Shown: positions 23,257 through 43,729 of the stretch, in pieces
Layout of the letters: each line of letters opens with the position of its first letter
Numbering within the stretch: position 1 is the first letter of the stretch
DNA from: Thiohalorhabdus sp. Cl-TMA
Lineage (GTDB): Bacteria; Pseudomonadota; Gammaproteobacteria; Thiohalorhabdales; Thiohalorhabdaceae
DNA length: 64,000 bases
Assembly: GCF_041821045.1 (NCBI RefSeq)
Contig: NZ_JBGUAW010000001.1
Location: forward strand, 186,001-250,000
Direction: 5' to 3'
The notes under the pieces: model-generated
Database searches by the model: none
The model's input: the letters and a program-made list of their open reading frames with translations, nothing else
Told to the model about the DNA's origin: nothing
Translations under genes and position numbers: made by a program

Positions 23257-23273
23257 GAGTTGTGGTCCGAAGT

Positions 23274-23975: not shown

Positions 23976-25885
23976 CCACGCTGACCGATCTCAATCCGGG
24001 TCGCAGGATCAAATGGCGAGGGCATTTCTACCGGGTCCGGGAACTCGTCACCCCGTCCAAGCTCCTGGTGGAGAACGCCAGTACGGGCGAGACTAAGGTG
24101 CTGAGCGTCTCGGACCTGCAAGATATAGCCCCTGAAGAGGAAGAAGCAGAGGCGACGGAGGGACCACCGGACCTTGCCACCTTGCACGACAAGGACTGGA
24201 AGGTCGCCAAGGAGCGTTTCGAGGCGATCCGGCCGCTTCTGGAGCTGGAGAAGCGGACTCGGGCCGATGTAAAAGCGCGGGCCGCAGAAACAGGGTGCTC
24301 GCCGGAATCCCTTTATCGGTGGATGCGTCTCCATCAGGAGGCCGGAGTCGTCGCCGCCCTTGCCCCCAAATCGCGCTCAGGCGGCGAAGGGAAAAGCCGC
24401 CTCAGCCCGGAGGTGGAAGCGCTCCTGACGGACACACTCGAAGAGGTGTACCAGAAGCCCCGCCGGCCCAGCGTCCAGCATACATGCAGGGAAGTGCTGC
24501 GACGCTGCCGTAACGCCGGGCTCGAAGCGCCCCACCCCAACACGGTCCGAAACCGGATCGCCCAGCTAAGCGAGCGGGAAAAGATGAAGAGGCGCGAGGG
24601 CACCAAGGCAGCCCGGGAGAGGTTCGCCCCGAAGCCCGGCCGGCATCCGGAGGCCGGGGAACCCCTTGGGGTCGTCCAGATCGACCATACCAAGCTGGAT
24701 ATCACCCTCGTGGACGATCTCGATCGCCGTCCGGTGGGTCGCCCCTGGCTCACCCTGGCCATTGATATCTACAGTCGCATGATCGTTGGGTTTTACCTTT
24801 CCTTTGACCCGCCCAGTGCCGAGTCTGTGGGCCTGTGTCTCAGCCAGGCGATACTCCCCAAGGACCAATGGCTCGCAGAGCGGGAAATCGATGCCGAATG
24901 GCCTGTTCAGGGAGTAATGAGCAAGATCCAGTCGGACAACGCCCGGGAGTTCCGGAGCGTCATGCTGGAGAGCGCCTGTAAGAATTACGGAATCGACATC
25001 GAATGGCGCCCCGTTTACCGCTCTGACTACGGCGCTTACGTGGAGCGGTTCTTCCGGACGCTCAATGCCGAACTCCATAACCTTCCTGGCACTACAAAGT
25101 CGAGCGTGGCGGAAAAGCGCGATTACGAACCTGATCGGGAAGCGTTCATGTCACTGACCGAGTTCGAGACCTGGCTGGGACGTTTGATCACCCAGGTCTA
25201 CCATGAGGAGGTGCATACCGAGTTGGGTATGCCTCCGGTCCGGATGTATATCCGAGGCATATTCGGTGACGACGATACCCCAGGGCGGGGAATCGCGCCG
25301 GTACCTACTGATACCCAGCGCCTGCGCCTGAGTTTTACGCCCCTTTTCGAGCGGACCGTCCAGTCCTACGGGATCACGCTCGACAAGATCCACTACTATC
25401 ACGATGTCCTGCGCCGTTGGATCCATGCCACGGATCCAGATAACCCGAAGGAAAAGCGGAAGTTCCTGTTCCGTCGGGACCCTCGGGACATCAGCACGGT
25501 CTATTTCCTCGATCCAGAGGAGGATCGCTACTTCCCGATTCCCTACCGGGATGCCGGACGGCCTAGGATGAGCTTGTGGGAACTCCGGGAAGCGCGGAAA
25601 AGGGCTCAGGAGCTTTGGGGGCGGGCTGACGAGGATACGATCTTCGAGGCATACAACCAGCTCCGGGAGCTGGAGGAGCGGGCCCAGAAGGAGACCCGGA
25701 AGGCGCGCAGGAAGGCGCAGCGCCGCAGGGACTGGCGGCGGGCTGGTGAGGCTCCCGAATCGCTGGAATCCGAATCTCCTCCACCCAAGAGGGAGGCCCC
25801 CTCCGCTGAGGCTGAGGAGGAGGACGAGGATGTGATCGAGCCCTTCGACGAGGTGGAAATTCGCAGCAATGACAATAGGGACTGA
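23972..25885 (+). CDS. tnsB: TnsB/TniA-type DDE transposase
   Basis: 637-residue Mu/rve-family integrase. N-terminal helix-turn-helix DNA-binding segments (SPESLYRWMRLHQE region) precede the catalytic core. The DDE residues are Asp in VQIDHTKLD (about 237), Asp in IQSDNAREF (about 322) and Glu in YVERFFRTL (about 357), with the expected 35-residue D-E spacing. A mu-type C-terminal beta-barrel and a charged, Glu/Arg-rich tail follow; the tail is where TnsB usually contacts TnsC. TnsB joins the 3' ends to target. It overlaps tnsC by 17 bp. Confidence 0.95.
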   Translation: MTTLTDLNPGRRIKWRGHFYRVRELVTPSKLLVENASTGETKVLSVSDLQDIAPEEEEAEATEGPPDLATLHDKDWKVAKERFEAIRPLLELEKRTRADVKARAAETGCSPESLYRWMRLHQEAGVVAALAPKSRSGGEGKSRLSPEVEALLTDTLEEVYQKPRRPSVQHTCREVLRRCRNAGLEAPHPNTVRNRIAQLSEREKMKRREGTKAARERFAPKPGRHPEAGEPLGVVQIDHTKLDITLVDDLDRRPVGRPWLTLAIDIYSRMIVGFYLSFDPPSAESVGLCLSQAILPKDQWLAEREIDAEWPVQGVMSKIQSDNAREFRSVMLESACKNYGIDIEWRPVYRSDYGAYVERFFRTLNAELHNLPGTTKSSVAEKRDYEPDREAFMSLTEFETWLGRLITQVYHEEVHTELGMPPVRMYIRGIFGDDDTPGRGIAPVPTDTQRLRLSFTPLFERTVQSYGITLDKIHYYHDVLRRWIHATDPDNPKEKRKFLFRRDPRDISTVYFLDPEEDRYFPIPYRDAGRPRMSLWELREARKRAQELWGRADEDTIFEAYNQLRELEERAQKETRKARRKAQRRRDWRRAGEAPESLESESPPPKREAPSAEAEEEDEDVIEPFDEVEIRSNDNRD

Positions 25886-26756
25886 GCCAGCCCATGATCA
25901 TCTGAATGCCGATGCCCGGGAGGCTCTTGAGCTTCCGTCAGAAGAGCGCATCCGGATCGTGCAGCAGGCGCGGTGGATAGGCTATCCGCGGGCCAAGGAG
26001 GTCCTGGAAAAGCTTGAGGGGTTGCTTAACCATCCCCATAAGGCCCGCATGCCGAATATGCTCCTGGTCGGGGAGACCAACAACGGAAAGACGGTAATCG
26101 TCAATCGCTTTCTCGAAGGGCACCCGCCGGATGACAACCCTTCCGGCGAAGCGATTCACGTACCAGTTCTCTCCATCGAGGCGCCACCCACGCCCGATGA
26201 GGCCCGGTTCTACGATGAGATCCTTTACAAGCTGAATATTCCGTTCAGGAAGAGCGATCGAGTATCGAACAAAGCCCTTCAGGTTGAGAAGGTCTTCCGG
26301 TACGTGGGCCTCCGCATGCTCATCGTGGATGAGATTCACAACCTGCTAGCTGGCCATGAGAAGCGGCAGCGGCAATTCTTAAACGCCCTGAAATGGCTCA
26401 CCAATACCTTACAGATCCCCATTGTCGGCGTGGGTACGCCGGAGGCGACGGCGGCGCTGCGGGTGGATCCCCAGGTGCGCAACCGGTTCACGCCGATGGA
26501 GCTGCCCAAATGGGAGAATGACAAGGCGTTCCGGCGACTGCTAGCGAGCTTCGAGCGGACCCTGCCCCTGAAGTGGCCATCCAACCTCCACGAGCGGGAG
26601 TTGGCCCGCCGTCTCCATGCCCTGTCCGAAGGGACCATTGGCGAGCTGGCCGATTTGCTGGGGATGGCAGCCATCGAGGCGATCCGTGGCGGAGAGGAGT
26701 GCATTAATTCCCAGCTGGTAGGGGCTCTGGGTTGGACCCCGCCCTCCAAGCGTTGA
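25869..26756 (+). CDS. tnsC: TnsC/TniB-type AAA+ transposition regulator
   Basis: ATP-dependent regulator that bridges the TniQ-bound target to the TnsAB transposase. Walker A is LLVGETNNGKT near residues 65-75; Walker B is MLIVDEIHNLL near 150. The sensor-type segment VGVGTPEA follows. At 295 residues it is the compact TniB size, far shorter than TnsC of prototype Tn7 (about 555). Confidence 0.93.
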   Translation: MTIGTEPAHDHLNADAREALELPSEERIRIVQQARWIGYPRAKEVLEKLEGLLNHPHKARMPNMLLVGETNNGKTVIVNRFLEGHPPDDNPSGEAIHVPVLSIEAPPTPDEARFYDEILYKLNIPFRKSDRVSNKALQVEKVFRYVGLRMLIVDEIHNLLAGHEKRQRQFLNALKWLTNTLQIPIVGVGTPEATAALRVDPQVRNRFTPMELPKWENDKAFRRLLASFERTLPLKWPSNLHERELARRLHALSEGTIGELADLLGMAAIEAIRGGEECINSQLVGALGWTPPSKR

Positions 26757-26769
26757 GGAGGAACCGTAT

Positions 26770-28794
26770 GTGGGTGCCCGTGTCCTAGAATCATTCCTCT
26801 GGACCATCCATCCCAAACCTGCCCCAGATGAGCTCCTGTCCTCCTGGCTCATCCGCCTCGCCAAGGCGCATGGTCTTTCCCCTTTCACCTTCTGCAACCT
26901 GGAATGGCCAAATCGGCCGCTCTGGCGACGGGACCTGGACAGGACCGTCGATTCGGATTTCCTGCTCGAGCTGGCGGAGCGAACGGGAACGCCATTTGCT
27001 CGAGTGCAGGAAACCACCCTGGCCGCCTATGCGGGGTGTTTATTCGAGACCTTTAACCCCACGGGCCAAACCTTCGGCATCCTTCCACTAGGGGTCTTCC
27101 ACCGCCGCAGAAAGCGGCCGGGCCTCCAGTTCTGTCACCGTTGCCTGGCCGGGGATGGGGAGCCCTACCTCCGGCGGCGATGGCGGATGACCTTTGAAAC
27201 CATCTGCCCGGTGCACGAAGTGAGCTTATTGGCGGTCTGCCCAAGCTGTGCCCTACCCTTGCACCCGCATCTGGTGAAAGATCCTAGGCGGACATTGGCC
27301 GCCTGCTTTCATTGCGGGAGAGACCTGCGGGATACGGAGGAGGGCAAGATTGAGCCCATTTCCGAGGAGATCCTCTGGTTTCAGGCCCTTTTCGATGTCG
27401 GCCTGGATACGGGATGGGTAGAGCTTCCAGGCCAGGGAATCATCCCCGCCGTGGCCTTCAATCGGGGCGCCCACCAGATCGCTAACACCTTGTGCGACCC
27501 AAGATGCATAGGACTTAAGCACCTGATTGAGCAGGAAGTCGGGTTTAACCTGCCGCTGCCCGGGCAAGGCGAGGGGCAAGTGCACCTTCGTTACCTGAAT
27601 GTGGAGATACGACGTGGGCTATTCACTGGCGTAGGCTGGTTGTTGCGGGAGTGGCCGGACCGGTTCGTTCAGGCGTGTCGCCAGTCCGGAGTGCGCACCA
27701 CAGAGCTTGCCTACGACCTGCCCGACTTGCCCTTCTGGTACCAATCGGTCATCAAAGAACAGTTGCTTCCTGGCGCCTATTCGCTCTCCAGCGCGGAGGT
27801 CGATGCCGCAAAGGCCTGGCTGGTTGGCCAGGGGAAAGAGGGCACGAAGGAACAGCTTGGAAGCCTGTTGGGGGCCCGGAAGGCGGGGTTCGTTGCGGAG
27901 GCCCGTCCGGATGGGAACCTGGAGGCACCCGCGGGAATGCGGGAGTTAAAGAAGACAGGACTGCCGCCCCAGGCGGAAAGCCTTTTCCGGTTTTTGGTGA
28001 CGAAATGGGGTCGGAAGCGAATCCGGGAGGGGCATGCCATCCGGGCGCTGAATCGTGACATTGGAGGTCTGCTTAGCCTGGCCCGATGGTCCGGGGAAGG
28101 TCCCTGGCAATGGACCAAGGACATGCTGGCGCGATGGCAGCATGCATTGTTGGTAGAGCGAGCCCTCCGATCCTCTACCCGCTCCACTTACCTTGGAGCC
28201 GTACGAGGGTTACTGCAATACCTCAGGGGGAACAAGTGGCTTAGGCGGGTTATCCGGGAACGAACTGGAATGGCCTTGCAGTTGGGGCCTCGGGAGTTGG
28301 TTCGGAAGAAAGGCCTTTCCCAGGAGGATGGGAACAACCAGGACGGCTCTAGGAGGGTGTATCCGGAGAAATGGATCAACCTTATATCCGGTAAGCCTGG
28401 CCGGGCATCCATCCGGGGAGGCAACCTTACGGGCCGAAAGCGAGGGCCCATGTATTTGGGGCGCAGGTTTGCACCCAACTCTCAGCTCGGGACCCATCAT
28501 TGGTGCGATGAATGTGGCCGAAGGCTGGAAAAAGGAAGAGTAAAAGCTATCCATGAGGAGTGGGCCTATTGCCAAACCTGTTACGCTCGAATTTTTCGAA
28601 AGGTTGCATGCGAGAGGTGTGGAAAGACCGTCCGAACCCCCCATGGGCGGAAACCAGCTATATGCAAGGGTTGCCGCATCAAGGGAAGGCGGTGCATGCG
28701 GTGCCGGCGGCTGGTATCTCGGGCCGGAATGACCGTAATGGGGGGCGTGTTATGCGGGTCCTGCGCAAATACCGTACGGGCCATCGGCATATAG
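26770..28794 (+). CDS. tniQ: TniQ/TnsD-family target-selection protein 1, with C-terminal zinc ribbons
   Basis: 674 residues from a GTG behind GAGGAGGA. The N-terminal TniQ domain starts with PDELLSSWLIRLAKAHG. Its zinc motifs are FCHRC (about residue 121), CPVHE, CPSC and CFHCG. After a helical middle part, the last ~90 residues hold at least three more CxxC pairs (CDECG, CQTC, CERCG, CKGC, CMRC, CGSC), an extra zinc-ribbon array that ordinary TniQ lacks. The length fits a sequence-specific TnsD. It is the best candidate for recognition of comM, but the second TniQ could do this instead. Confidence 0.88.
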   Translation: MGARVLESFLWTIHPKPAPDELLSSWLIRLAKAHGLSPFTFCNLEWPNRPLWRRDLDRTVDSDFLLELAERTGTPFARVQETTLAAYAGCLFETFNPTGQTFGILPLGVFHRRRKRPGLQFCHRCLAGDGEPYLRRRWRMTFETICPVHEVSLLAVCPSCALPLHPHLVKDPRRTLAACFHCGRDLRDTEEGKIEPISEEILWFQALFDVGLDTGWVELPGQGIIPAVAFNRGAHQIANTLCDPRCIGLKHLIEQEVGFNLPLPGQGEGQVHLRYLNVEIRRGLFTGVGWLLREWPDRFVQACRQSGVRTTELAYDLPDLPFWYQSVIKEQLLPGAYSLSSAEVDAAKAWLVGQGKEGTKEQLGSLLGARKAGFVAEARPDGNLEAPAGMRELKKTGLPPQAESLFRFLVTKWGRKRIREGHAIRALNRDIGGLLSLARWSGEGPWQWTKDMLARWQHALLVERALRSSTRSTYLGAVRGLLQYLRGNKWLRRVIRERTGMALQLGPRELVRKKGLSQEDGNNQDGSRRVYPEKWINLISGKPGRASIRGGNLTGRKRGPMYLGRRFAPNSQLGTHHWCDECGRRLEKGRVKAIHEEWAYCQTCYARIFRKVACERCGKTVRTPHGRKPAICKGCRIKGRRCMRCRRLVSRAGMTVMGGVLCGSCANTVRAIGI

Positions 28795-30164: not shown

Positions 30165-33100
30165 ATGACTGAACCCCAGAGTGCGGTTACGGTTAAAGGC
30201 CTCTTAGCCAAAATCCGTGAGGTAGCTCGTGACGAGCACGGCAAGGGCCGCATGTTCGAGCGGTTCTTCCAGGAGTACCTCCGGGTCCACCCGCCGTACA
30301 GCGACATGTTCGAAGAGGTTTGGCTCTGGGGCGAATGGCCGGACCGCTGGAGCACCGATGTGGGAATCGACCTGGTGGCCCGTACCACCACCGGGGATTA
30401 TTGGGCTATCCAGTGCAAGTTCTATGCGCCCGACCAGACCGTAAGCCGCAGCGATATCGACGCCTTCTTCACGGCTTCGGGCCGCCGATTCGCCACGAGT
30501 GACGGCGAGGAACACAACTTCGCTCAGCGTCTCATCGTTTCCACGACCGACCACTGGTCCTCCCACGCGGAAAAGGCCCTGGAGAACCAGACGCCTCCCG
30601 TCGCCCGTCTGTTTCTCCGGGACCTGGAGGAAAGTCGGGTGGACTGGTCTGCCTTCGATCCGACCAGGGCCACCGAAATCCCGCTGGTCCCCACCAAATC
30701 CGTCCGGCCCCACCAGGAAGAAGCCATCCAGGCCTCCCTGGAGAAATTCGAATCCGACGACCGCGGCAAGCTCATCATGGCTTGCGGTACTGGCAAGACG
30801 TTCACCTCCCTGCGTCTGATGGAGCGAATGGGAGCGCAACGGGTGCTGGTGCTGGCGCCATCCATTTCTCTGGTGGGCCAGACCCTCCGGGAGTGGGCTC
30901 AACAGGCTGAGGCTCCTTTCCATGCCTTCGCCGTGTGCTCCGATACCAAGGTGAGCCGGGAGACCGAGGACCTGGCGGTTCACGACCTCGCCTTCCCCGC
31001 CACCACCGATCCGGAGACCCTCGGCACTCAGTTCGAACGCACCGACGACGGCCGGCGTCGCGTGGTGTTTTCCACCTATCAGTCCATTGAAACGATCGAA
31101 CAGGCCCAAGCCGCCGGGGTACTACCTGAGTTCGATCTGATCGTTTGTGACGAGGCCCACCGCACTACGGGGCTCACCCTGCCCGAGGACGACAAGGTCT
31201 CCCACTTCGTTCGGGTCCACGACAACCGCAACGTGGCTGGTGCCAAGCGCCTCTACATGACGGCCACCCCGCGCATTTACGCCGAGCCTTCCAAGAAGAG
31301 GGCCGACGAGCGGGACGCCGCCATGTACTCCATGGACGACCCCGACACCTTCGGAGAGGAATTCCATCGCCTGGATTTCGGGCAAGCCGTGGAGCGAGGG
31401 CTGCTTGCCGATTACAAGGTCCTCATCGTGGCGGTGGACCAGGAGGCCATGGGGGATCTGGCCAACAGGTACGCCCGCGAAGGCAACACACGGGCCATCG
31501 ACACCAAGTTCGCCCAGAAGATCATCGGGGCCTATAAGGGGCTGGCCAAGCACACTGTCCGGGAGCTCACCACGGAAGGCGAAGAACGGGACCTCACCAG
31601 CGACCCTGAACCCATGCAGCGGGCCGTCGCCTTTTCCCAGTCCATCAAGCAATCCAAACGGGTTCGCGACACCTTCCAGGGCCTGACGGATACCTACCTT
31701 GAGCAGACTGGCCGTTCCGGAAGCGATGCTTTGGCCTGTGATATCCAGCATGTCGACGGCAGCATGAACGCCATGGAGCGCCAGGAGGCCCTCGACTGGC
31801 TCCGGGAAAGCGATGCCGAGCCCAGCACCTGCCGCGTGCTATCTAATGCTCGCTGCCTTTCCGAAGGGATCGATGTGCCGGCCCTGGATTCGGTGATCTT
31901 CTTCGACAATCGCGAGTCCATGGTGGACATCGTCCAGGCGGTGGGCCGGGTCATGCGGAAGGTGGAAGGCAAGGAATACGGCTACATCATCCTTCCCGTC
32001 GGGATCCCGCGGGATCAGGTGGGCAACTTCGACAACTACATCCGCAAGGATGACCAGTTCAAAGGCATTTGGAAGGTCATCAAGGCCCTGCGAGCCCATG
32101 ACGAGTCCCTCGTGGATGAGGCCGAGTTTCGACGCAAGATCCAGGTGGAAGACGGGACCGCTGAGGACAGCAATTCGGGTGAGGGGAACGAAAAGGAGGG
32201 CCAGGATCAGCTTACCCTGGATCTCCAACCCTTACCCATCGAAGACATCGCCGATTCGGTCTACGCGGTTATCCCGGAGAAGCTCGGCGATCGGGAATAT
32301 TGGGCCAACTGGGCCAAAGAGGTCGCGGATATGGCCCAGCGGCTCATACAACGGATTGAGGGGGTTGTGGCCCAACCGGACGGCCGGGCCGCTTTCGATG
32401 AATTCATGGGGGAGGTTCACCGCAGCATCAGCCCCTCGGTGTCCGAGCCGGACGCCATCCGGATGCTTGCCCAGCACGTCATCACCCGCCCGGTGTTCGA
32501 TGCCCTGTTCGAGGGCAACCAGTTCACCGAGACCAACCCGGTGGCCACGGCTCTTGATCGGATGATGCAGCGCCTGGACGAGTACGCCCTCACGGAGGAG
32601 GCCGGGGGCCTGGAACGCTTCTACAGCCAGGTTCAGGACCGTATACGGCTTGCCAAGAGCGACAAGTCCAAGCAGGACGTGATCCGAAACCTCTACGATA
32701 CCTTCTTCCAGCGAGCTTTCCCCGGTATCGCGGACCGCCTAGGAATCGTCTACACACCGACCGAAGTGGTGGACTTCATCAACCGGTCGGCCCAGCACGC
32801 CCTCCAGGAGCATTTCGGCCGGAATCTAGGCGACGAGGGGGTTCATATCATCGACCCATTCGCCGGCACCGGCATGTTCCTTGTGAGGATGCTCCAACTC
32901 CAGCTCATGGACGCGGAAGACCTTCCCCGAAAGATGGACTCGGAGCTGCACGCCAACGAGATCGTGCTACTGGCCTACTATATCGCCACCATAAACATCG
33001 AAACCGCCTATCACGAGGCCACCAGGGAACACCGACCCTTCTCGGGAATGGTTCTGACGGACACCTTCGCCATGGCCGAAGGGGCACAGCGGGACGATAT

Positions 33101-35051
33101 CCGCGAGCAGGAATGGCTGGCGGCCAACAGTGAGCGGGCCCGTCGGCAGCGGAAAACCGATATACAGGTGATTGTCGGCAACCCCCCTTATTCCGCTTGG
33201 CAGGAAAGCGGACACGAGACCAACGCCAACCAGCCCTATCCGGCCCTGGATGAGCGAATCCGGGAAACCTATGCGGCTCACTCTTCCGCTCAGCTACGGA
33301 ACAGCCTTTACGACAGTTACATCCGCGCCATTCGGTGGGCCTCAGACCGGATCGGAGAGCAGGGTGTGGTGGCCTTCGTGACCAACGGTTCCTTCATCGA
33401 TGGGAACGCGGCGGATGGCCTACGCAAGAGCTTGGTGGAGGAGTTCAGCTACCTCTATGTGGTAAACCTAAGGGGCAACCAACGGACCTCCGGGGAAGAA
33501 TCCCGCCGGGAGGGTGGAAAGGTCTTCGGGCAAGGCTCCCGAGCACCGGTTGCCATCACCCTAATGGTCAAGGATCCAAACCATGAAGGGGGATGCCAGC
33601 TCCTCTATCACGACATCGGGGACTACCTAACCCGGGAGCAGAAGCTGGGTTGGTTGAGCCACTACAAGGACCTGAGCGGAATCCCCATGACCGTTGTTCG
33701 CCCCACTAATCGAGGGGAATGGGTCAATCAGGGAGATCCAGCCTTCGACACCTTCCCGGCTATCGGGCGCAAGAAGGAAAAAGAAGGTCCGGCCATTTTC
33801 GGGACCTATTCCCGGGCTGTTATGAGCGGCAGAGATTGGTGGGTTTATAACTTCTCCCGACAGGCCCTTGAAGAAAACATGACCGGCATGATCAAGGCCT
33901 ACAACAGGGAGGTGGACCAGCTTGAAGAAGCGGGTGGGGCGGATTCCTTGGATGAAGCCAAGCGGAGCGTGGACACCGACCCTGCCCGTATCGCCTGGGA
34001 TGACGACCTATTCAACGACGCTCGACGAGGCAAAAAAGAGCTCTTTGAGGCCCAAAAAGTTGTCCGGGCCGTGTATCGACCCTTCACCAAAGACTTCTAC
34101 TATTATGATCGGCTTTTTAATAACCGACTTTATCTATTCCCTAGCCTATTCCCCACCCCCCACCATGCCAATTGGGTGATTGCCGTCACAGGCAAAGGAG
34201 CTGCCAAACCATTCTCGGTAATGGCAGCCGATACTGTGGTTGACCTTGAAATGATTTCCAAGGGCCAGTGCTTTCCCCTCTACTGGTATGAATACGTTGG
34301 GCATTCGGCCTCTCCTGGCGAACAGGGCAACCTCCTGGCCGGACAGGATACTGCCTCGGGCCAACACTTGCTTGCAGGTGAGGCTATCCCGGATGAGCAC
34401 GGCTACATCCGCCATGAGGCCATAACCGACTGGGCGTTGGAGGCCTATCGGCAGCACTACGAAGATTCCTCCATAACCAAGGAGGCCATCTTCTGGTACG
34501 TCTATGGTCTCCTCCACAGCGACGACTACCGAGAGCGATTCCGCAACAACCTCCGCCGAGGCCTTCCAAGGATCCCGTTCGTGACCGATTTCTGGGCCTT
34601 CAGCAATGCTGGCCGAGAGTTGGGTGACTGGCACCTGAATTATGAGAACGTCCAGCCCTCTCGCCTTGAGGAAGTGATTACCCCGGGGAAAACGCGGGAC
34701 CCCCGGGTACACGACAAAATGCGCTTCGGCGGCAATACTCGAACTCCGGACAAGACCACCATTGTGGTCAATGACACCCTCACTCTTCGCGGCATCCCAC
34801 TGGAAGCCTACGACTACCAGGTCAACGGCAAATCCCCCATTGAGTGGGTCCTGGAGCGGTATCAGGTCACCACGGACGACAAGAGCGGGATCACCAACGA
34901 CCCTAATGCTTATTCCAATGACCCTTACTACATCGTCAATCTTATTAAGTGCCTGGTACAGGTTAGCCTGCAAACCCGTCGCATTGTGGCAGAGCTTCCG
35001 AAGTTGGAAATTGACGAGGACGCATCCGCCCGCTGGGGCTCTGAGACTTGA
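30165..35051 (+). CDS. Type ISP restriction-modification enzyme (nuclease-helicase-methylase-TRD)
   Basis: A single 1,628-residue polypeptide with all activities of an ATP-dependent R-M system. Residues ~1-130: Mrr-like nuclease (DVGIDLVART, AIQCKFYAP). About 170-600: SF2 helicase with Walker A ACGTGKTFTS (~205), VCDEAHRTTG (~327) and motif VI (VGRVMRK). A coupler follows. About 850-1100: N6-adenine methylase with IDPFAGTGMF (~894) and VGNPPYSAW (~1004). The C-terminus is a target-recognition domain. Length and order match LlaGI/LlaBIII-type ISP enzymes, which methylate one strand and cleave after translocating enzymes collide. It needs no partner gene. No frame damage is seen. Confidence 0.9.
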   Translation: MTEPQSAVTVKGLLAKIREVARDEHGKGRMFERFFQEYLRVHPPYSDMFEEVWLWGEWPDRWSTDVGIDLVARTTTGDYWAIQCKFYAPDQTVSRSDIDAFFTASGRRFATSDGEEHNFAQRLIVSTTDHWSSHAEKALENQTPPVARLFLRDLEESRVDWSAFDPTRATEIPLVPTKSVRPHQEEAIQASLEKFESDDRGKLIMACGTGKTFTSLRLMERMGAQRVLVLAPSISLVGQTLREWAQQAEAPFHAFAVCSDTKVSRETEDLAVHDLAFPATTDPETLGTQFERTDDGRRRVVFSTYQSIETIEQAQAAGVLPEFDLIVCDEAHRTTGLTLPEDDKVSHFVRVHDNRNVAGAKRLYMTATPRIYAEPSKKRADERDAAMYSMDDPDTFGEEFHRLDFGQAVERGLLADYKVLIVAVDQEAMGDLANRYAREGNTRAIDTKFAQKIIGAYKGLAKHTVRELTTEGEERDLTSDPEPMQRAVAFSQSIKQSKRVRDTFQGLTDTYLEQTGRSGSDALACDIQHVDGSMNAMERQEALDWLRESDAEPSTCRVLSNARCLSEGIDVPALDSVIFFDNRESMVDIVQAVGRVMRKVEGKEYGYIILPVGIPRDQVGNFDNYIRKDDQFKGIWKVIKALRAHDESLVDEAEFRRKIQVEDGTAEDSNSGEGNEKEGQDQLTLDLQPLPIEDIADSVYAVIPEKLGDREYWANWAKEVADMAQRLIQRIEGVVAQPDGRAAFDEFMGEVHRSISPSVSEPDAIRMLAQHVITRPVFDALFEGNQFTETNPVATALDRMMQRLDEYALTEEAGGLERFYSQVQDRIRLAKSDKSKQDVIRNLYDTFFQRAFPGIADRLGIVYTPTEVVDFINRSAQHALQEHFGRNLGDEGVHIIDPFAGTGMFLVRMLQLQLMDAEDLPRKMDSELHANEIVLLAYYIATINIETAYHEATREHRPFSGMVLTDTFAMAEGAQRDDIREQEWLAANSERARRQRKTDIQVIVGNPPYSAWQESGHETNANQPYPALDERIRETYAAHSSAQLRNSLYDSYIRAIRWASDRIGEQGVVAFVTNGSFIDGNAADGLRKSLVEEFSYLYVVNLRGNQRTSGEESRREGGKVFGQGSRAPVAITLMVKDPNHEGGCQLLYHDIGDYLTREQKLGWLSHYKDLSGIPMTVVRPTNRGEWVNQGDPAFDTFPAIGRKKEKEGPAIFGTYSRAVMSGRDWWVYNFSRQALEENMTGMIKAYNREVDQLEEAGGADSLDEAKRSVDTDPARIAWDDDLFNDARRGKKELFEAQKVVRAVYRPFTKDFYYYDRLFNNRLYLFPSLFPTPHHANWVIAVTGKGAAKPFSVMAADTVVDLEMISKGQCFPLYWYEYVGHSASPGEQGNLLAGQDTASGQHLLAGEAIPDEHGYIRHEAITDWALEAYRQHYEDSSITKEAIFWYVYGLLHSDDYRERFRNNLRRGLPRIPFVTDFWAFSNAGRELGDWHLNYENVQPSRLEEVITPGKTRDPRVHDKMRFGGNTRTPDKTTIVVNDTLTLRGIPLEAYDYQVNGKSPIEWVLERYQVTTDDKSGITNDPNAYSNDPYYIVNLIKCLVQVSLQTRRIVAELPKLEIDEDASARWGSET

Positions 35052-35190: not shown

Positions 35191-35928
35191 ATGTCCAAGA
35201 TCGAGTGGACCGAGGAGACCTGGAACCCGGTTACCGGATGCACCAAGGTTTCTCCGGGATGCAAGCACTGCTACGCCGAAACCCTTTCCATCCGGCTCCA
35301 GGGGATGGGGGTCCCCGGCTATGAAAACGGGTTCCAGCTGAGCATTCAGTCCGAGCGCCTAGAGCAACCTCTGAAACGTAGGCGGCCTACCATCTACTTC
35401 GTGAATTCCATGTCCGATCTCTTTCAGGAGGGAGTGCCAGCGGAATTCATTGATCAGGTGCTGGATGTCATACGAAGGACGCCGCAGCACACCTATCAGG
35501 TGCTAACCAAGCGGGCGGAGGTTCTGCCCGCCTTTTTTGAAAAGAGGGAGTGTCCCGAAAACCTTTGGTTAGGGGTCTCAGTTGAAGACCAAAGGTATGG
35601 AGTGCCAAGAATCCCGCTACTCCGGCAGGTAGCTGCTCCCGTGCGGTTTCTATCTGCGGAGCCCTTACTGGAGGACCTGGGAGATATAAACCTGGAGGGA
35701 ATTCAGTGGGTTATCGTTGGGGGAGAATCTGGGCCTAAGGCTAGGCCTATGAAACCGTCATGGGTGGAGAACATCAAAAACCGTTGCGAAGACCAGGGAG
35801 TTCCATTTTTCTTTAAACAGTGGGGGGCTTGGGGGCCAGATGGAGTCCTTCGAAGCAAAAAGGCCAACGGCCGGGACCTAGGTGGGAAAACTTGGGACGA
35901 AATGCCAGCATTACCTGAGATTGTTTAA
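35191..35928 (+). CDS. DUF5131 (phage Gp37/Gp68-like) three-cysteine protein
   Basis: 245 residues. The N-terminus IEWTEETWNPVTGC and the cysteine cluster TGCTKVSPGCKHCYAE (Cys-x6-Cys-x2-Cys) define the DUF5131/Gp37-Gp68 family. Later conserved blocks are NSMSDLFQ, YQVLTKRAE, WLGVSVEDQ and VIVGGESGPKARPM. The Cys spacing and the overall layout recall radical SAM enzymes, but not the canonical CxxxCxxC. It is convergent with the TcmP gene and the two overlap by 18 bp at their stops. Function is unproven; it is found in phages and mobile islands. Confidence 0.85.
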   Translation: MSKIEWTEETWNPVTGCTKVSPGCKHCYAETLSIRLQGMGVPGYENGFQLSIQSERLEQPLKRRRPTIYFVNSMSDLFQEGVPAEFIDQVLDVIRRTPQHTYQVLTKRAEVLPAFFEKRECPENLWLGVSVEDQRYGVPRIPLLRQVAAPVRFLSAEPLLEDLGDINLEGIQWVIVGGESGPKARPMKPSWVENIKNRCEDQGVPFFFKQWGAWGPDGVLRSKKANGRDLGGKTWDEMPALPEIV

Positions 35929-36735
35929 TATGTGACCAGCGATTCGCTTTGCTGGCCCAATCGCTTTAGGGTTGGGGTTGGAGGTGGCGAAAAAGAGTGA
36001 AAACAGGGGGGAATTCTCCATACATAGTCGCTTGGGAGGCAGAACCGACGAAAATAGCCCATCCAAGCGTTCTCGGGCAAAGTTTTCTAGATCGTCAGGG
36101 CCCGGCTCCCTTCGAACTGGTCGAGAACCAAACAGTTCCCCTTGATCAACCTCTTTGTATATCTTTTCACGCCATTCCTGCGTACCAAGAATCCGATCCA
36201 TGGCCGCTTTCTTATCCTCATCCATGGATGAAAAATCAAGCGCAGCCTGCCGGTAAACCCCGCTCAAAGGGAACAAATACCAAACATCCAGGGCCTGGGT
36301 GGCTGAAATTACTTCAAGCGTTCTCCAATCCAATTCCATCCCATAAGGATCAAGGAAAATCACTCCGCGCCAATTCGTTGTATTTAGATTGGGGAGTTTT
36401 TCCTGCAAAACAGAATTCGCATCCCCCAGTTGAACCGCTATTTTCTTATCGCTATGTTCTTTTCTAATACTCCTCAAACCCTCGTATCTTTCTTCATCAC
36501 TTTCAATAAAAAAATAATAATCAAATCCCCCGTTATCCAGGGCCACCTGCGCTGACCCCTTAGCTTCCTTTGGGTCCCCATATTTTGTTTTAACCGCCCC
36601 ACTACCCGCAAAGGCATCAATATAAAGCAGCTTAAATTTTTGCTTTTTCAGTGCGGTGGTAAAACCGTGAAGGTAGTCCTCTAATGCCCCCAATTTTAAT
36701 AAAGTCCACGCCCCACCGAAAACGTTCTCCGTCAT
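35911..36735 (-). CDS. tcmP: Three-Cys-motif partner protein TcmP
   Basis: The family is named for its association with the three-Cys (DUF5131-type) protein, which lies tail-to-tail here. Visible motifs are GGAWTLLKLGALEDYLHGF near the N-terminus, LLYIDAFAGSGAV (motif-I-like, methyltransferase fold) and GVIFLDPYGMELDW. I chose the ATG at 36733-36735 (GGGGGT upstream). In-frame ATGs at 36753 and 36792 are possible; the latter would overlap the HNH gene. It is more AT-rich than the type ISP gene. A methyltransferase-like role with DUF5131 is inference. Confidence 0.82.
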   Translation of the reverse strand: MTENVFGGAWTLLKLGALEDYLHGFTTALKKQKFKLLYIDAFAGSGAVKTKYGDPKEAKGSAQVALDNGGFDYYFFIESDEERYEGLRSIRKEHSDKKIAVQLGDANSVLQEKLPNLNTTNWRGVIFLDPYGMELDWRTLEVISATQALDVWYLFPLSGVYRQAALDFSSMDEDKKAAMDRILGTQEWREKIYKEVDQGELFGSRPVRREPGPDDLENFARERLDGLFSSVLPPKRLCMENSPLFSLFFATSNPNPKAIGPAKRIAGHILNNLR

Positions 36736-36772: not shown

Positions 36773-37522
36773 TTATTGAGCGCACCTTTCAAGGACTCGC
36801 TCTATTCGCGTCGCCTCTATATAGTCATACTTAAAATCCCACTTTTCTTTCACTTTCCTCCACCGCTTCACGTATGTGCAGTGAAAAGCATGACGGGGGG
36901 GCATCCAGTCGGCGGGCCCTTCCGCTCCTTTGCTCATATTGGCACCCGACTCCACGGCAAGCAGATTGGCCGGATCGTTTGCGAATTCACGCTTTTTATC
37001 CGAAGGCCATGTGGCGGCCCCGCTTTCATGAGCTTCCGCCAGGGGTACCACATGGTCAATGTGGAGTTCGGAAGGATCACGGAAGATCTCCCCGGTATAG
37101 GGGCCCCTCCAGATGCCCGTTGCGATCTCGCATTCCCGCGCCGTCTCCCATTCCACCGGTCCCCGGGCCTGGTCGAGAAGAACCTCGGTCCGAGTATCCC
37201 GACAATCCCTATCGGTGTCGGTCCAACCCCCATAGGCGTCCCGCTCATAGCCTGTAGCATGGGGTCCCCCAGCCCGACGCTCCGCCGCAAGGGCACTCTC
37301 CGCCTTCCAAGCCGAGGCAAACTCCCGGCCCTCAAGGGGGCCGGAATGACAGTGATAGCCACCTTCCTGTCTTTCGTTGTGGCAACCTAGATCATCGGTA
37401 CCGCCGGGATGCCCGTACGCTGCAAAAGTACACACCCCTACTAGTAAAACTAGAAGAAGACTCTGACCTGTTACCAGTCCTGAAACGTATTTCGTTTTGG
37501 TGGCCCCATTTATACCGTTCAC
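36773..37522 (-). CDS. Exported YHCH-HNH (DUF1524-like) nuclease
   Basis: 249 residues from a GTG start. A hydrophobic segment (QSLLLVLLVGVCTFAAYG, about residues 20-37) is a likely signal peptide. It is followed by HPGGTDDLGCHNE and GGYHCHSG, the YHYH-type cysteine/histidine motif of secreted proteins. The C-terminal nuclease domain has LHIDHVVPLAEA, FANDPANLLAV and NMSKGAEGPADWMPP, the HNH pattern of the DUF1524/GmrSD C-terminal type. A periplasmic or secreted DNase is predicted. An exported nuclease could degrade DNA entering the cell; that role is inference. Confidence 0.8.
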   Translation of the reverse strand: MNGINGATKTKYVSGLVTGQSLLLVLLVGVCTFAAYGHPGGTDDLGCHNERQEGGYHCHSGPLEGREFASAWKAESALAAERRAGGPHATGYERDAYGGWTDTDRDCRDTRTEVLLDQARGPVEWETARECEIATGIWRGPYTGEIFRDPSELHIDHVVPLAEAHESGAATWPSDKKREFANDPANLLAVESGANMSKGAEGPADWMPPRHAFHCTYVKRWRKVKEKWDFKYDYIEATRIERVLERCAQ

Positions 37523-37582: not shown

Positions 37583-39436
37583 TCAGCTCTCGGTTAAACT
37601 GCCACCGTGAATTCGCTCCATACCTGCTGGCTCGAGAAGATTTTCTAGCCACGTAACGGGCCGTCCGTGCTCCCTAGAAAGGGAAAAAAATGCTCGTTGC
37701 TCTGCCCTGGTGAACGCTACGAAAAAAGCGTTCAGTTCTTGTGGTTTGTCGGGGGAAAGACTCCACCAACTTTGGTTATCCAAGCCTAAAAAGATCATTG
37801 TGTGAAACTCAAGCCCCTTGCTCTTGTGGATGGTCATAAGGGGTATTTGGCCGTAACCGACAAACTCGTCAATGGCTTGGGACCAGGTTGGCGATTGCTC
37901 TGCACACTTTGTTAGCAATTGGCGAAATCCGCCCCATACCCTGTCGAAATCCCGCTGTCGACGATAAAACGGAAAAGCTTGGCGTAACTTGTCTTCGTCG
38001 ACCTTCTCCAGCAATTGGCAAGCCAGTTCATCAGCAATTTCCCTCGTAGGCGGATTACGGCGCATAATCCCGCGAAGGACTCGGACGAAAGACTCCAAGT
38101 TCTGTTGAATGGCCTGCTGCTTGAAATCATTTTGCGGATCAGCCGCCTCTAGGTATTGGAAATTACGAAGGGCGGTATTCCAACTGGAAGCGTCCCTTTC
38201 AGAAGCACCCAGGCGAAGGAGTGGCAAAAAAATCTCCGTAAGGTCTTCTCCGAGAAGGTCCTGAATGGGGATGTCCCCGACAGCACGTGCTTCGTTTCTT
38301 AGCCTTAATCCATGGCGGGCCAACTCGGGACGGATCTCCTCTTCTACTTCGTTGGGCTTCATCCGTACAAGCAACGCAATATTGTGCGGCTTCACCTCCC
38401 CTGAGAATATCTCTTGAGAAACCCAGGCCCCGATTGTTGCGGCTTCCTCTTCCCGGTTAGAAAAATCCCAAATAGCGGCTATGTGGCCAGCGACAGTTTT
38501 TGTACCTCGTGCCTCTATCTCTTCAATCGTCGGGTCAATCCTGCTTGCTATAGCTTGTTGAATGCGGACCAGTTCCGGATGGGAGCGCCAGTTTGAAACA
38601 AGCGAAAAATGGGTGGCCGTGAACGCATCCTGAAACCGTTCAAACCCATCGTGCATCGCACCTGCCCAGGCCATTATCTGCTGTTTGTCATCTCCGACGG
38701 CGGTTAGAGCAGCCCCACTTCCTTCAAACGCTTCTCTAATGAGCTGAAATTGGGTATCGGTTGTGTCTTGAAATTCGTCGATAAAAACCACAGGGTAGGT
38801 TAGCTGTAATGCCCGCTTTATTGTGGAGTTTTCACGCAGTAGATAATCGATGAGCCGATTTATCATTGGAAAGGAGAGTAGGGCTTCCTCATTTTCTTCA
38901 AGCTGTTCCTGCCAATACGATTGGACGATTCGCCCCAATCGGCCGTTGCGGCGGATTGGAAGGCGCGTCCGAATAATTGCCGACTCAAGTTGCTTAGTAT
39001 TCACGCTGCGAATTTCGCGGCGCTGAAGAAAATCTTCGAATTCTGTCCTTCCTGGAAAGATGATTCTATATTCACCGGAAGGGCGATAGGGGTCCGGGAT
39101 GGCGGCACGAAAGCGATCTAGCAGCCCCTTTGCGAAGGCATCGAAGGTATAGGAATCGAAACGGCGAGCCTGATCCGGCGGACACCTTTTCTCAATTCGG
39201 GAAGCCAGATTACGTGCGGCATCACGTTTGAAGCTGATTGCAAGAATTCGTTTGGGTGAAGGGCAAAGGGCTGTCTGCAAAAAGTAGGTCGCCTTTTGCG
39301 CTAGGAACTCGGTCTTCCCAGACCCGGCACCCGCGGTAACGAGCACACTCCCTGCAGCTTTAAGAGCTTCCCATGCCTTAGGCTCTAACTCATCAACACC
39401 TTGAGGATACCAGTCCTCCGGCCGGACTAAAGTCAT
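37583..39436 (-). CDS. UvrD/Rep-like helicase, Gabija GajB-like
   Basis: Superfamily 1A helicase, 617 residues. Motif I is VTAGAGSGKTEFL, motif II VFIDEFQDT, motif V/VI region TIHKSKGLEFHTM and FVAFTRAEQRAF. Its start overlaps the upstream OLD-type gene by 4 bp, so the two are translationally coupled. An OLD-type ATPase/TOPRIM protein plus a UvrD-like helicase in this order is the composition of Gabija (GajA-GajB), which cuts phage DNA when nucleotides are depleted. The protein is longer than typical GajB (about 500). Confidence 0.82.
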   Translation of the reverse strand: MTLVRPEDWYPQGVDELEPKAWEALKAAGSVLVTAGAGSGKTEFLAQKATYFLQTALCPSPKRILAISFKRDAARNLASRIEKRCPPDQARRFDSYTFDAFAKGLLDRFRAAIPDPYRPSGEYRIIFPGRTEFEDFLQRREIRSVNTKQLESAIIRTRLPIRRNGRLGRIVQSYWQEQLEENEEALLSFPMINRLIDYLLRENSTIKRALQLTYPVVFIDEFQDTTDTQFQLIREAFEGSGAALTAVGDDKQQIMAWAGAMHDGFERFQDAFTATHFSLVSNWRSHPELVRIQQAIASRIDPTIEEIEARGTKTVAGHIAAIWDFSNREEEAATIGAWVSQEIFSGEVKPHNIALLVRMKPNEVEEEIRPELARHGLRLRNEARAVGDIPIQDLLGEDLTEIFLPLLRLGASERDASSWNTALRNFQYLEAADPQNDFKQQAIQQNLESFVRVLRGIMRRNPPTREIADELACQLLEKVDEDKLRQAFPFYRRQRDFDRVWGGFRQLLTKCAEQSPTWSQAIDEFVGYGQIPLMTIHKSKGLEFHTMIFLGLDNQSWWSLSPDKPQELNAFFVAFTRAEQRAFFSLSREHGRPVTWLENLLEPAGMERIHGGSLTES

Positions 39437-41421
39437 TCTTCATCTTCCCAAAGTCCGATTTTCCGACCAGCATACTTAATAATTGCCCTCAACTCAGGGG
39501 GCGCATTTTGTGCCAAGCTCTGTGCATTGATTCGGCTTAGTGCAGCAACATGGCCTTCAGGCTTGCTGTGACCCAAGAAAAGATACGGATACCATTTAAA
39601 ATGGTCGTCATAGTCAGGGGGATACAGGTTGGGATTTCCGCTCGTTTTTAAAGAAACCGCTTTTTTGTTTTGGATATCATCAGGTTGTCCCCGAGGGCCA
39701 CGTCCTCCAGGCCTCGGCTGCATATAGGCGGTGGGAAAGGCGGAAAGCATGGAAAAATCAATGTCGAGGGGGCTCGAAAAATACACACCTTCTTGGGCTA
39801 GAGCCTTGAGCCAGGGACTATTTTCATAATCCTCTAAGAGTTCTTCGGGGTCTAGGTCCTTGATATTCTCTGGATCGATTTCGCCTGCCAAAACAAACGG
39901 ATTCTCCCCGAAATCTTGCCCTGCTTCAGTTAATTTAGAAATGACATCATGTAGCGTAGCGACTCCGCCATGTGCCCGTCCCAGATCGAGATCAAGGAGT
40001 GTGGCAAAAGGGATCCCCAGATCTGATAAGAGGTTCCAAAAATAGGTAACATAGCGACCCCCAAGCGGCACGACTGGTACGAAGGAGGGGTCTAGTGGGA
40101 TCCCCATAGCCTCGGCGACTCGAGGGATAATGAAACGCTCCGAGTCACCTTCCCCGAGTATTACGAAGCGTGCGAAGTAAATCTCTGGATATGCCTGAAC
40201 GGCTAACCGGATGTACTGACTTGCCTCCTGGTCATCTGACGGCAAGGCCAGCTTACGTGCCGAGGTGCTGCGCAATGGTTGATCGAGCCGGAAGTGGCGG
40301 ATCTCTTCAGGCTCGAGACGACTTAAGATTGCTGGAGAGTGACTAGATAGGGCTACCTGTGCCGAAGGCATCTCTCCAAGGTCCCGAGCTTGCCTCATGA
40401 TTCGGGAAAGAAAGAATGGGGAAAGGCTATTTTCTGGTTCTTCAATGGCAAGAAGGGTAAGATGTGCCCGGCGCAACTTTTCCTGTTCAAATGGGCTTTC
40501 ATCCTGTCCACTGGAAAGTGAGTCACGTTCCGCCTCAAGAGTCGCCGCCGTCAGGGCGATATGAAACAGGGAGCGTTGTCCGTCACTAAGGTCTGAAAGT
40601 GCCCTTTCCTGTCCAGCTTCGTCTGGATAGAAAGAAAATTCCGCCTTCCTGACTAGCTCCTCCGGCCGATTTTCGACCAGGCGCAACCTAGGGGTTGTGT
40701 CCGTATCTCCTTCATGTACCTCCTGCCATCGTCTATTAAGGCGATGGATAATGAACTCTGTGGGCGCCTCTCTTTCAAATCCATTTTGGAGGTCGTTTGC
40801 TGACTGGGTACTGCATTCCCTGAAATTGTCGGACCATCGTGCTGCCTGCCAAAGCCGGCCCTTTAGCAGGGCAGTAACCTGGGTAGCAGCATCCCGGCTC
40901 GCCGGTAAATAAACGAGTTGAATCGAACCACGTTCTACGGCTTGCACCTGGGGGCATTCGGACCATTCGAAATCGTCCCCAAGGGTGGTGATCCACCGGA
41001 GTTCTTCGTCCACATTACCTTCCGGTGTCCCGTCATCCGTCCATGTTGCTCGAAGAGCCAATCGGCACTTTAGGCTTTCCCCTGGGCCTGAGGCGGCCAT
41101 CTGGCGGAAAAACTCGGGCACGGCGTCCGCGACATCTTCATCCTCTTCGCCATCAAGTTCCGGAAAACCCAGGACCACCTCAACGCCGAGGGACGCCCCA
41201 GATTCAAGCTCTTCGGTGGCAGCCGGAATGTGGAAGTCTTGCCGACGAACCTTTCTTTGATTTGACCCGGTGCCAAAAATCCTGGAGAGAGCCAGGAAAG
41301 CGGCGGTTTTTCCAGCGCCATTGCTCCCGATTAAACAAGTAACAGCCCTCTCAAAATCAATGACGGTTGATCCCGGCCCAAAGGACCGAAAATTTGTTAA
41401 CGATACGCGCTCGATTTTCAT
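39433..41421 (-). CDS. OLD-family ATPase with TOPRIM domain, Gabija GajA-like
   Basis: 662 residues. N-terminal ABC/SMC-like ATPase: LTNFRSFGPGS, Walker A IGSNGAGKTAAF, Walker B LLAIEEPENSLSP, and a signature-like LSDGQRSLFHIAL. The C-terminal TOPRIM nuclease domain is marked by FVILGEGDSERFIIP and the acidic LLDLDLGRAHGG. This is a class 2 OLD nuclease, defined by an adjacent UvrD-like helicase. The coupled helicase gene makes a Gabija-type system the best call. It is about 80 residues longer than the best-known GajA. Confidence 0.83.
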   Translation of the reverse strand: MKIERVSLTNFRSFGPGSTVIDFERAVTCLIGSNGAGKTAAFLALSRIFGTGSNQRKVRRQDFHIPAATEELESGASLGVEVVLGFPELDGEEDEDVADAVPEFFRQMAASGPGESLKCRLALRATWTDDGTPEGNVDEELRWITTLGDDFEWSECPQVQAVERGSIQLVYLPASRDAATQVTALLKGRLWQAARWSDNFRECSTQSANDLQNGFEREAPTEFIIHRLNRRWQEVHEGDTDTTPRLRLVENRPEELVRKAEFSFYPDEAGQERALSDLSDGQRSLFHIALTAATLEAERDSLSSGQDESPFEQEKLRRAHLTLLAIEEPENSLSPFFLSRIMRQARDLGEMPSAQVALSSHSPAILSRLEPEEIRHFRLDQPLRSTSARKLALPSDDQEASQYIRLAVQAYPEIYFARFVILGEGDSERFIIPRVAEAMGIPLDPSFVPVVPLGGRYVTYFWNLLSDLGIPFATLLDLDLGRAHGGVATLHDVISKLTEAGQDFGENPFVLAGEIDPENIKDLDPEELLEDYENSPWLKALAQEGVYFSSPLDIDFSMLSAFPTAYMQPRPGGRGPRGQPDDIQNKKAVSLKTSGNPNLYPPDYDDHFKWYPYLFLGHSKPEGHVAALSRINAQSLAQNAPPELRAIIKYAGRKIGLWEDEE

Positions 41422-42450: not shown

Positions 42451-43671
42451 TTATAAATTTCCTTTTATTGAAAGGTATAAGACCTTCCCTGGGCACATCC
42501 CAATGCGTGTTAAATGGTCCTCCCGAAATTGACTTAATATTCCCCACCGCCCAGGTTGGGGAAAATCCCACTCTCCTGACCATTCAAAATTAAAATTTTT
42601 TAACCTGCCATCATCCGCCAGCCAAAATTTATATTTCTCCAGTTCAAATATAAAACTTAGGTCGATCAGCTTTTTTCCATTGAGAATTTCTCCAATAGCC
42701 CAATGAATATAATTTAACTTAATATTTTCTAGTATTTCTATACTTTCGTTTCTGTTTGACTGGTAAATGTAATCCTGAAAATGCCTTAAAAATTTTGAAG
42801 CGAGCCTTAATTTTGAGGCTCTTTCATGTTGTTTTGCCTTATTAAAAATAGTGGGAAAATTATATTTATTAAGTAATTGCGCCCATGATAATGAGTTATA
42901 AGAAAAGTTATGTAAGGAGGTTGTAGCCTTTTTTAATAAGGGGAAGTTGGCAAGTTGGATCGCTTTTTCAAAATGGTGTTCATATTCTTTTTGGCTGTAA
43001 TTGGAAATTTCTTCGTCAGGAAATTTTACTCTTTTTAAGGCGGATTCTTGAATTTTTAATAATTCATATACTGAATTGTCGAGTTTTCCTGTGTATTCAA
43101 TTTTTCTTGTTATATCCTTACCGCAATGGAGGCATATGTTCAATCTAAAAGCTCTAAAGATAGAGGTTTGGAACCCAACATTTTTATAGCAATGGGGGCA
43201 CCCGGAGCTTAAAAAATTTTTGTGTTCGGGGCAGACAAGGTAAAAACTTAGGCGCCATTTTTTTAAAAAATATGGTTCGTTTGTTTGGGTTAGGCATAGA
43301 GGGCAAAATTGAAAGGTAGGAAATCTATCAAGCCCATTTAAGCTGGTATTTGGAAGGACCCAGTTTTTTATAAGGTGAATCTCATTTGGGCTACTTTGTT
43401 CATTATATAATGTTGTTTTCGACACCTCCTCTGGTTTGAAGCCTGTGGCTTTTCCTATTAATCGGATATGCTTAAAACCTAGGCCGGCTTCCAGGTCAAT
43501 AGGTAACTTCTCCTTTTCTCCAAAAATCCAAAGAAGCAAAGTTCTTAAATTGGTGCCATGGGCGAGGGCTAGCCTAGTTAACCAAGACGAACAAGCCTCT
43601 TCCGTTTTTGGGGGAAGATGTATCGGAAGGGTCTGGTGACCATCCCAAGTATGTGGGGCTGGGTTTGCCAT
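42451..43671 (-). CDS. tniQ: TniQ-family protein 2, right-end and AT-rich
   Basis: 406 residues, transcribed inward from the right terminus. The N-terminal SSWLTRLALAHGTNLR and the zinc motifs FCPLCL, CPEHK, CPHCY and CLHCG are those of the TniQ domain. The start is ATG 43669-43671 (MANPAPHTWDG); a GTG/ATG reading from 43686 would run into the end repeat. Codon use is strikingly A/T-rich (many Lys, Asn, Ile), unlike the GC-rich tnsABC-tniQ1 block, so its origin probably differs. It may be a second target selector; which TniQ reads comM is not evident. Confidence 0.87.
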   Translation of the reverse strand: MANPAPHTWDGHQTLPIHLPPKTEEACSSWLTRLALAHGTNLRTLLLWIFGEKEKLPIDLEAGLGFKHIRLIGKATGFKPEEVSKTTLYNEQSSPNEIHLIKNWVLPNTSLNGLDRFPTFQFCPLCLTQTNEPYFLKKWRLSFYLVCPEHKNFLSSGCPHCYKNVGFQTSIFRAFRLNICLHCGKDITRKIEYTGKLDNSVYELLKIQESALKRVKFPDEEISNYSQKEYEHHFEKAIQLANFPLLKKATTSLHNFSYNSLSWAQLLNKYNFPTIFNKAKQHERASKLRLASKFLRHFQDYIYQSNRNESIEILENIKLNYIHWAIGEILNGKKLIDLSFIFELEKYKFWLADDGRLKNFNFEWSGEWDFPQPGRWGILSQFREDHLTRIGMCPGKVLYLSIKGNL

Positions 43672-43678
43672 GGTTCCC

Positions 43679-43724
43679 AGTCTCAACTTCTTTTGTATAG
43701 TTTCAACTACTCTTGTAATTCACA
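43679..43724. repeat. Right end with two adjacent TnsB-site-like repeats
   Basis: In inverse orientation to the left end: 43699-43720 (AGTTTCAACTACTCTTGTAA and two more bases) and 43679-43698 (AGTCTCAACTTCTTTTGTAT). They abut each other, unlike the spaced left-end sites. The terminal ACA is 43722-43724. tniQ2 starts only 8 bp inside the inner repeat. Confidence 0.82.
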
Positions 43725-43729
43725 GCCGC
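43725..43729. repeat. Target-site duplication GCCGC, right copy
   Basis: Immediately after the element's terminal ACA and identical to 23121-23125. Confidence 0.93.

Follow-up and report, generated by a model that had tools for sequence, protein, structure and literature searches.

The DUF5131 and tcmP genes, which lie tail to tail in a Tn7-like element of Thiohalorhabdus sp. Cl-TMA, may belong to a two-enzyme module of mobile DNA that would modify nucleic acid, RNA being the likelier substrate, and that would be carried as anti-phage or self-protection cargo; we put the probability of this reading at about 0.4. Direct computation showed that the DUF5131 protein has a radical S-adenosylmethionine (SAM) fold, that TcmP is homologous to the methyltransferase RlmJ, that the two genes are inherited together in a near-obligate manner, and that they occur in a mobile context rich in restriction-modification (R-M) genes.

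The window, by which we mean the whole stretch of 64,000 nucleotides that was analysed, contains a Tn7-like element that splits comM, both halves of which are located outside the element (Table 1). The terminal repeats, TGTAAATTACAAAAGAAATTGA and TGTGAATTACAAGAGTAGTTGA, are short and begin with TGT, and they are bracketed by a 5-bp duplication, GCCGC, at positions 23121-23125 and 43725-43729. The element looks complete. Its GC content is 55%, against 67-68% in the surroundings, and that of the tcmP gene is 47%. The cargo consists of a type ISP R-M enzyme, the DUF5131-TcmP pair, an HNH/GmrSD_C protein, GajB and GajA. The original prediction, according to which the two genes share their last 18 bp and reside in a transposon with anti-phage cargo, was borne out on both points, the anti-phage cargo being the type ISP enzyme and Gabija. 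Among the pair loci examined, linkage to Gabija was found in the window only, and linkage to a type ISP enzyme in two cases only, namely the window and plasmid p74 of Leptospira biflexa. The HNH-type protein with YHYH and GmrSD_C domains is encoded between the pair and Gabija; no homologue of it was found in the other pair loci examined.

Table 1. Features of the Tn7-like element and its cargo (positions are those of the window)
Feature	Position	Strand	Remarks
Tn7-like element in comM	23126-43724		20.6 kb; carries the DUF5131-TcmP pair; target site duplication GCCGC
TnsA, TnsB (Mu-transposase C domain), TnsC/TniB, TniQ	23262-28794		transposition genes of the Tn7-like element
Type ISP restriction-modification enzyme	30165-35051	+	1628 aa; directly upstream of DUF5131; Pfam and PADLOC
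DUF5131 gene (Gp37/Gp68 family, COG4422)	35191-35928	+	245 aa; PF07505 E 6e-107
Overlap of the DUF5131 and tcmP stops, tail to tail	35911-35928		exactly 18 bp
tcmP gene, short TcmP subtype	ATG at 36735, stop end 35911	-	274 aa; TIGR04474 E 1e-49
GmrSD_C/YHYH-domain (HNH-type) protein	36776-37522	-	PF07510 E 2e-13, NF033223; upstream of tcmP
Gabija GajB and GajA	37583-41421	-	cargo of the Tn7-like element; PADLOC E 2e-211 and 1e-228
Second TniQ	42451-43686		far end of the Tn7-like element, away from the tnsABC-tniQ block; AT-rich, GC 37%

The pair had been put forward as undescribed, and in this respect the prediction has to be corrected. PADLOC-DB v2 (2023) lists both proteins as candidate system PDC-M41, in which A is TcmP and B is DUF5131, and the window proteins, whose genes are adjacent, matched both models (PDC-M41A, E 1e-71; PDC-M41B, E 6e-108), which places them in this system. 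In the sister system PDC-M30, component B is of the same DUF5131 family (the window protein matched PDC-M30B with E 4e-109), whereas component A is a long TcmP and that of the window a short one. The PDC systems are putative candidates obtained by guilt-by-embedding, without experimental validation (PMC10855318). The one published hint of a phage phenotype that our searches brought up concerns P. aeruginosa: of 100 strains in a panel, 32 were predicted to carry PDC-M30, and 68.8% of these 32 were phage-resistant (PMC10855318). The figure is correlative and comes from strains with many systems. COG4422, the COG of DUF5131, was among the symbiont-enriched COGs in a study of sponge symbionts, a set dominated by restriction-modification (PMC5649159). 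In the literature searched we found no paper on DUF5131 by name, and no report of biochemistry or of a functional or phage test of PDC-M41 or PDC-M30. Thus, the pair is already catalogued as a defence candidate, in a database entry that gives no mechanism; what is new here is the near-obligate adjacency, the fold and homology assignments, the methylase enrichment, and the phage and Hna contexts.

Co-occurrence of the two genes was analysed in a sample of 249 genomes of the phylum to which the window belongs. TcmP scored above the cut-off in 18 and DUF5131 was present in 27 of these genomes. All 18 genomes with TcmP also contained DUF5131, always in an adjacent position (hypergeometric P 4e-21, a value that overstates independence because the sampled genomes are related). 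E. coli and other genomes gave weak matches to TcmP, but the twelve of these loci that were inspected turned out to encode RlmJ and were rejected as orphan TcmP. In Chloroflexota, the phylum of genome G266, DUF5131 was adjacent in 16 out of 20 genomes with a full-length TcmP; one of the four TcmP genes lacking an adjacent DUF5131 is located at a contig end. Both genes are abundant: TcmP was detected in 7-20% of the sampled genomes of the two phyla, and for DUF5131 there were 405 records from plasmids and 161 from phages.

The gene order was determined for a set composed of named genome loci and of viral contigs found through DUF5131, which together gave 87 well-parsed neighbours. TcmP preceded DUF5131 in 47 and followed it in 19 of these loci, while the genes were convergent in 21 and divergent in none; a single divergent pair was observed in Chloroflexota genome G295. 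The tail-to-tail layout is therefore nothing special but one of three arrangements found, and stop overlaps of 3-22 bp are usual among convergent relatives. The DUF5131 tree requires a minimum of 14 switches in gene order and 20 in TcmP subtype, counts that may be inflated because only 28 of the 107 inner branches are well supported. The persistence of the pairing through these changes indicates selection for togetherness and not for a single transcript, and an operon-only logic is ruled out by the three gene orders together with the divergent case. Distances between DUF5131 proteins correlated with those between long TcmP proteins (r 0.50, permutation maximum 0.14); no significant correlation was obtained for short TcmP, the subtype of the window (r 0.24, permutation maximum 0.28). 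DUF5131 was solitary in 46 of 80 loci on viral contigs, indicating that it can act, or do something, without TcmP. Several loci (L068, L074, L078, L079, L080, L081 and L221) contain one DUF5131 and two TcmP genes, usually a long and a short one, and possibly represent a three-gene form. At another locus (G219:C1:2120073-2120312) a DUF5131 fragment overlaps a TcmP fragment, and this looks like a decayed pair.

The DUF5131 protein scored 357 bits against PF07505, far above the gathering cut-off of 28.9, and is hence a member of this family. It contains the Cys-x6-Cys-x2-Cys cluster (Cys17, Cys24, Cys27) from which a radical enzyme had been suspected. The 67 homologues aligned all have C17, C24, C27 and Y28, and nearly all have C199; other invariant positions are S73-M74, K107, E132, E157-P158, a GGESG motif and K209. 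The AlphaFold model has a mean pLDDT of 95.8. When this model was compared with the PDB using Foldseek, the six matches with E<1e-3 were five entries for spore photoproduct lyase (SPL) and one for TigE, also a radical SAM enzyme, and viperin (rank 9, E 6e-3) and lipoyl synthase came next. The model thus has the partial TIM-barrel fold of radical SAM enzymes, in agreement with the earlier suspicion; since the TM-scores are modest (0.41-0.47), the assignment holds at the level of the superfamily.

The likeness to SPL comprises the fold and three clustered N-terminal cysteines that are followed by a tyrosine. The two differ, however, in length (245 aa versus about 340) and in the spacing of the cysteines, which is CX6CX2C in DUF5131 instead of the canonical CX3CX2C of radical SAM proteins, SPL included. 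Further non-canonical spacings are known in the superfamily. Alignment of the DUF5131 profile with two SPL-family proteins by hhalign gave a non-significant 1.3%, in which the Cys motif alone was aligned, and a sequence-profile link between DUF5131 and SPL was accordingly dropped. A search of solved structures with the DUF5131 profile produced chance matches only, and a single-sequence search of solved structures with the pair proteins yielded nothing useful. DUF5131 also matched NCBIfam TIGR04471, 'radical SAM mobile pair protein A', with E 1e-26. This sequence homologue is likewise half of a mobile two-gene pair, present on Bacteroides plasmids, but its score of 93 bits does not come near the 355 bits set as the family cut-off, and TIGR04471 is, by its name, half of another pair. 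Based on the fold and the conserved cysteines, we take DUF5131 to be a radical-SAM-type enzyme with an unusual CX6CX2C spacing and a presumed Fe-S cluster.

TcmP scored 169.8 bits against TIGR04474 ('three-Cys-motif partner protein TcmP'; curated cut-off 53), establishing its membership of that family. As had been pointed out, it contains the methyltransferase-like sequences IDAFAGSGAV (motif I, DAFAGSG) and LDPYGM (motif IV, DPYG). Its methyltransferase character is upheld by three methods, all of which identified RlmJ as the best relative: a profile search of PDB sequences (E 3e-4), an hhalign comparison that spans motifs I to IV (97%, E 8e-11), and a Foldseek search with the AlphaFold model (pLDDT 92.4), in which RlmJ (E 1e-7) was followed by the tRNA methyltransferase Trm1. 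RlmJ is the 23S rRNA (A2030-N6)-methyltransferase. Apart from these two, the nucleic-acid enzymes that ranked within the first 50 fold matches were YhhF/RsmD, TFB1M, NSUN5, METTL16, a cap methyltransferase and RsmA, all of them RNA methyltransferases; these matches favour RNA as the substrate, without proving it.

TcmP has in common with RlmJ the fold and a homologous core from motif I to motif IV with an N-terminal Lys helix. It differs from it in three ways: it lacks the RlmJ insert between motif I and the PGS motif, it has DUF5131 as a partner, and the catalytic DPPY of the RlmJ type is DPYG in the window protein and D-P/Q-x-G across the family, with D-Q-x-G often replacing D-P-Y-G in the long forms. 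The motif IV aspartate is conserved in nearly all TcmP proteins, and the motif presumably resembles the 'DPFG' of Trm1. The absence of DPPY and the low similarity rule out that TcmP is a plain RlmJ orthologue. Instead, it appears to be a distant RlmJ homologue and is predicted to be a SAM-dependent methyltransferase.

A model that joins the two enzymes would be as follows. DUF5131 would bind a [4Fe-4S] cluster via Cys17, Cys24 and Cys27 and cleave S-adenosylmethionine, and the resulting radical would be used on a base; TcmP, as a methyltransferase from the RlmJ lineage that likewise depends on SAM, would methylate that base or one next to it. RNA (tRNA or rRNA) would be the most probable substrate, ahead of DNA, and a nucleic acid or translation component, the target originally proposed, is supported as the likeliest class. 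The modification of the nucleic acid may then enable the carrier to survive phage invasion or to block it, and such protection would account for the pair being carried by Tn7-like elements, plasmids and prophages and in R-M-rich islands.

The surroundings of the pair were examined in 36 genomes in which its position is known, by counting N6_Mtase and N6_N4_Mtase genes within 10 kb. DNA-methylase genes were present within this distance in 7 of the 36 genomes, compared with 0.7 expected from their genome-wide number, an enrichment of about 10-fold for which intervals cut at contig ends would lower the expectation and split-gene fragments in the totals raise it. Thus, the enrichment near defence genes on which the prediction had been made to depend beforehand was found, for restriction-type DNA methylases. 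This genome-wide positional test was used instead of an earlier flank scan with PADLOC and Pfam (128 flank versus 118 control genes, aggregated output), in which R-M models were favoured in the flanks and single families were non-significant (P 0.13).

Individual loci show which genes accompany the pair. On L. biflexa p74 (L224:1883-8783) a close relative of the window's type ISP enzyme (1416 bits) is encoded directly upstream of TcmP and DUF5131, in this order and on one strand, and the R-M and TcmP frames overlap. DUF262 and an EcoRI-type methylase were found near the pair of Rhodococcus ruber, and AbiE is a neighbour of that of Phenylobacterium. On pSymA of Sinorhizobium meliloti (L221:7953-13614), DUF5131, a long TcmP and a short TcmP are clustered with the Hna helicase gene, the pair genes being directly beside hna. 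Hna, a helicase-like protein unlike the pair proteins, was tested for phage defence and may have a candidate accessory set beside it on pSymA; it was absent from the other pair loci examined. NolR raises hna and the TcmP gene SMa2243 about twofold each (PMC12445080). On different Pseudomonas plasmids (L222, L223, L281 and L282) the genes for integrase, DUF5131 and TcmP recur in this order as a block; mostly a gene for a DNA-binding protein is located in front of it, and in some cases Tn3-family transposase genes are near. In Gordonia phages Easley and ThankyouJordi the pair is positioned between the integrase and the immunity repressor, with TcmP 3 bp behind the repressor gene and in the same direction, which suggests expression in the lysogen. 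All annotated pair contexts inspected were mobile, being Tn7-like, Tn3-associated, plasmids or prophages. Among the nearest neighbours of solitary viral DUF5131 genes, C5 DNA methylases accounted for 6 of 126 flank proteins and N6/N4 DNA methylases for 3 of 126; C5 cytosine DNA methylases are near solitary DUF5131 in viral loci such as L151, L167, L192 and L201. Among the proteins that flank the solitary genes there is also one match to the Thoeris inhibitor Tad3.

These contexts could also be read as anti-restriction. The pair would then not be an immune system but would modify the mobile element's own DNA against restriction enzymes that the element meets or carries, as the uniformly mobile contexts, the methylases beside solitary viral DUF5131 and the type ISP enzyme directly beside the pair in two loci would allow. 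We consider this rather unlikely. TcmP is nearest to RNA and not to DNA methyltransferases, its place behind the immunity repressor in the two Gordonia actinophages is a site for genes expressed in the lysogen and not by incoming DNA, and a defence island would give the same methylase enrichment. Similarly doubtful in our estimate is the proposal that the pair is an immune system with a new mechanism, in which DUF5131 as radical SAM enzyme and TcmP as methyltransferase derived from RlmJ would together hypermodify RNA (or DNA) and so render cells or lysogens phage-resistant, with two interchangeable TcmP subtypes and a free gene order.

Nucleic-acid repair is less probable still. According to this explanation, DUF5131 reverses a base lesion in the manner of SPL, its top fold match, and TcmP assists it, which would help the carrier after DNA damage or phage attack. 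Its genomic argument comes from mycobacteria and involves Rv2734, a presumed DUF5131 protein. TcmP gene BCG_2748c of BCG adjoins recX (BCG_2749c) and recA (BCG_2750c) (PMC7387457, PMC3625197), Rv2735c of M. tuberculosis is cotranscribed with recA-recX (PMC3062782), and Rv2734, Rv2735c, recX and recA form one cluster with differential expression under mitomycin C (PMC5057432). However, a frameshift is present in Rv2735c in some lineage-4 isolates (PMC9846648), the linkage found across genomes is that to R-M genes, the recA linkage being drawn from mycobacterial loci, and DUF5131 has no profile homology to SPL. The least probable explanation, that DUF5131 produces a small molecule or an altered nucleotide (compare viperin and ddhCTP) which TcmP methylates, no polymer being modified, is consistent with the viperin match and with the many substrates served by radical SAM and class I methyltransferase folds, but is at odds with the RNA-acting nature of the best TcmP relatives.

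Together, the pairing, the fold and invariant residues of DUF5131, the homology between TcmP and RlmJ, the methylase enrichment, the adjacency to Hna and to phage repressors and the frequency of PDC-M30 among phage-resistant P. aeruginosa count in favour of a nucleic-acid-modifying module. The TM-scores of DUF5131, the lack of profile homology to SPL, the non-canonical Cys spacing and the absence of DPPY from TcmP count against it, as do the missing distance correlation for short TcmP, the frequent occurrence of solitary DUF5131 in viruses and the few Chloroflexota TcmP genes without DUF5131. The fold assignment for both halves turns a widespread and tightly coupled pair, annotated as of unknown function, into a testable claim. 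If the anti-phage role is true, the pair would provide immunity through modification, with no nuclease evident among its components.
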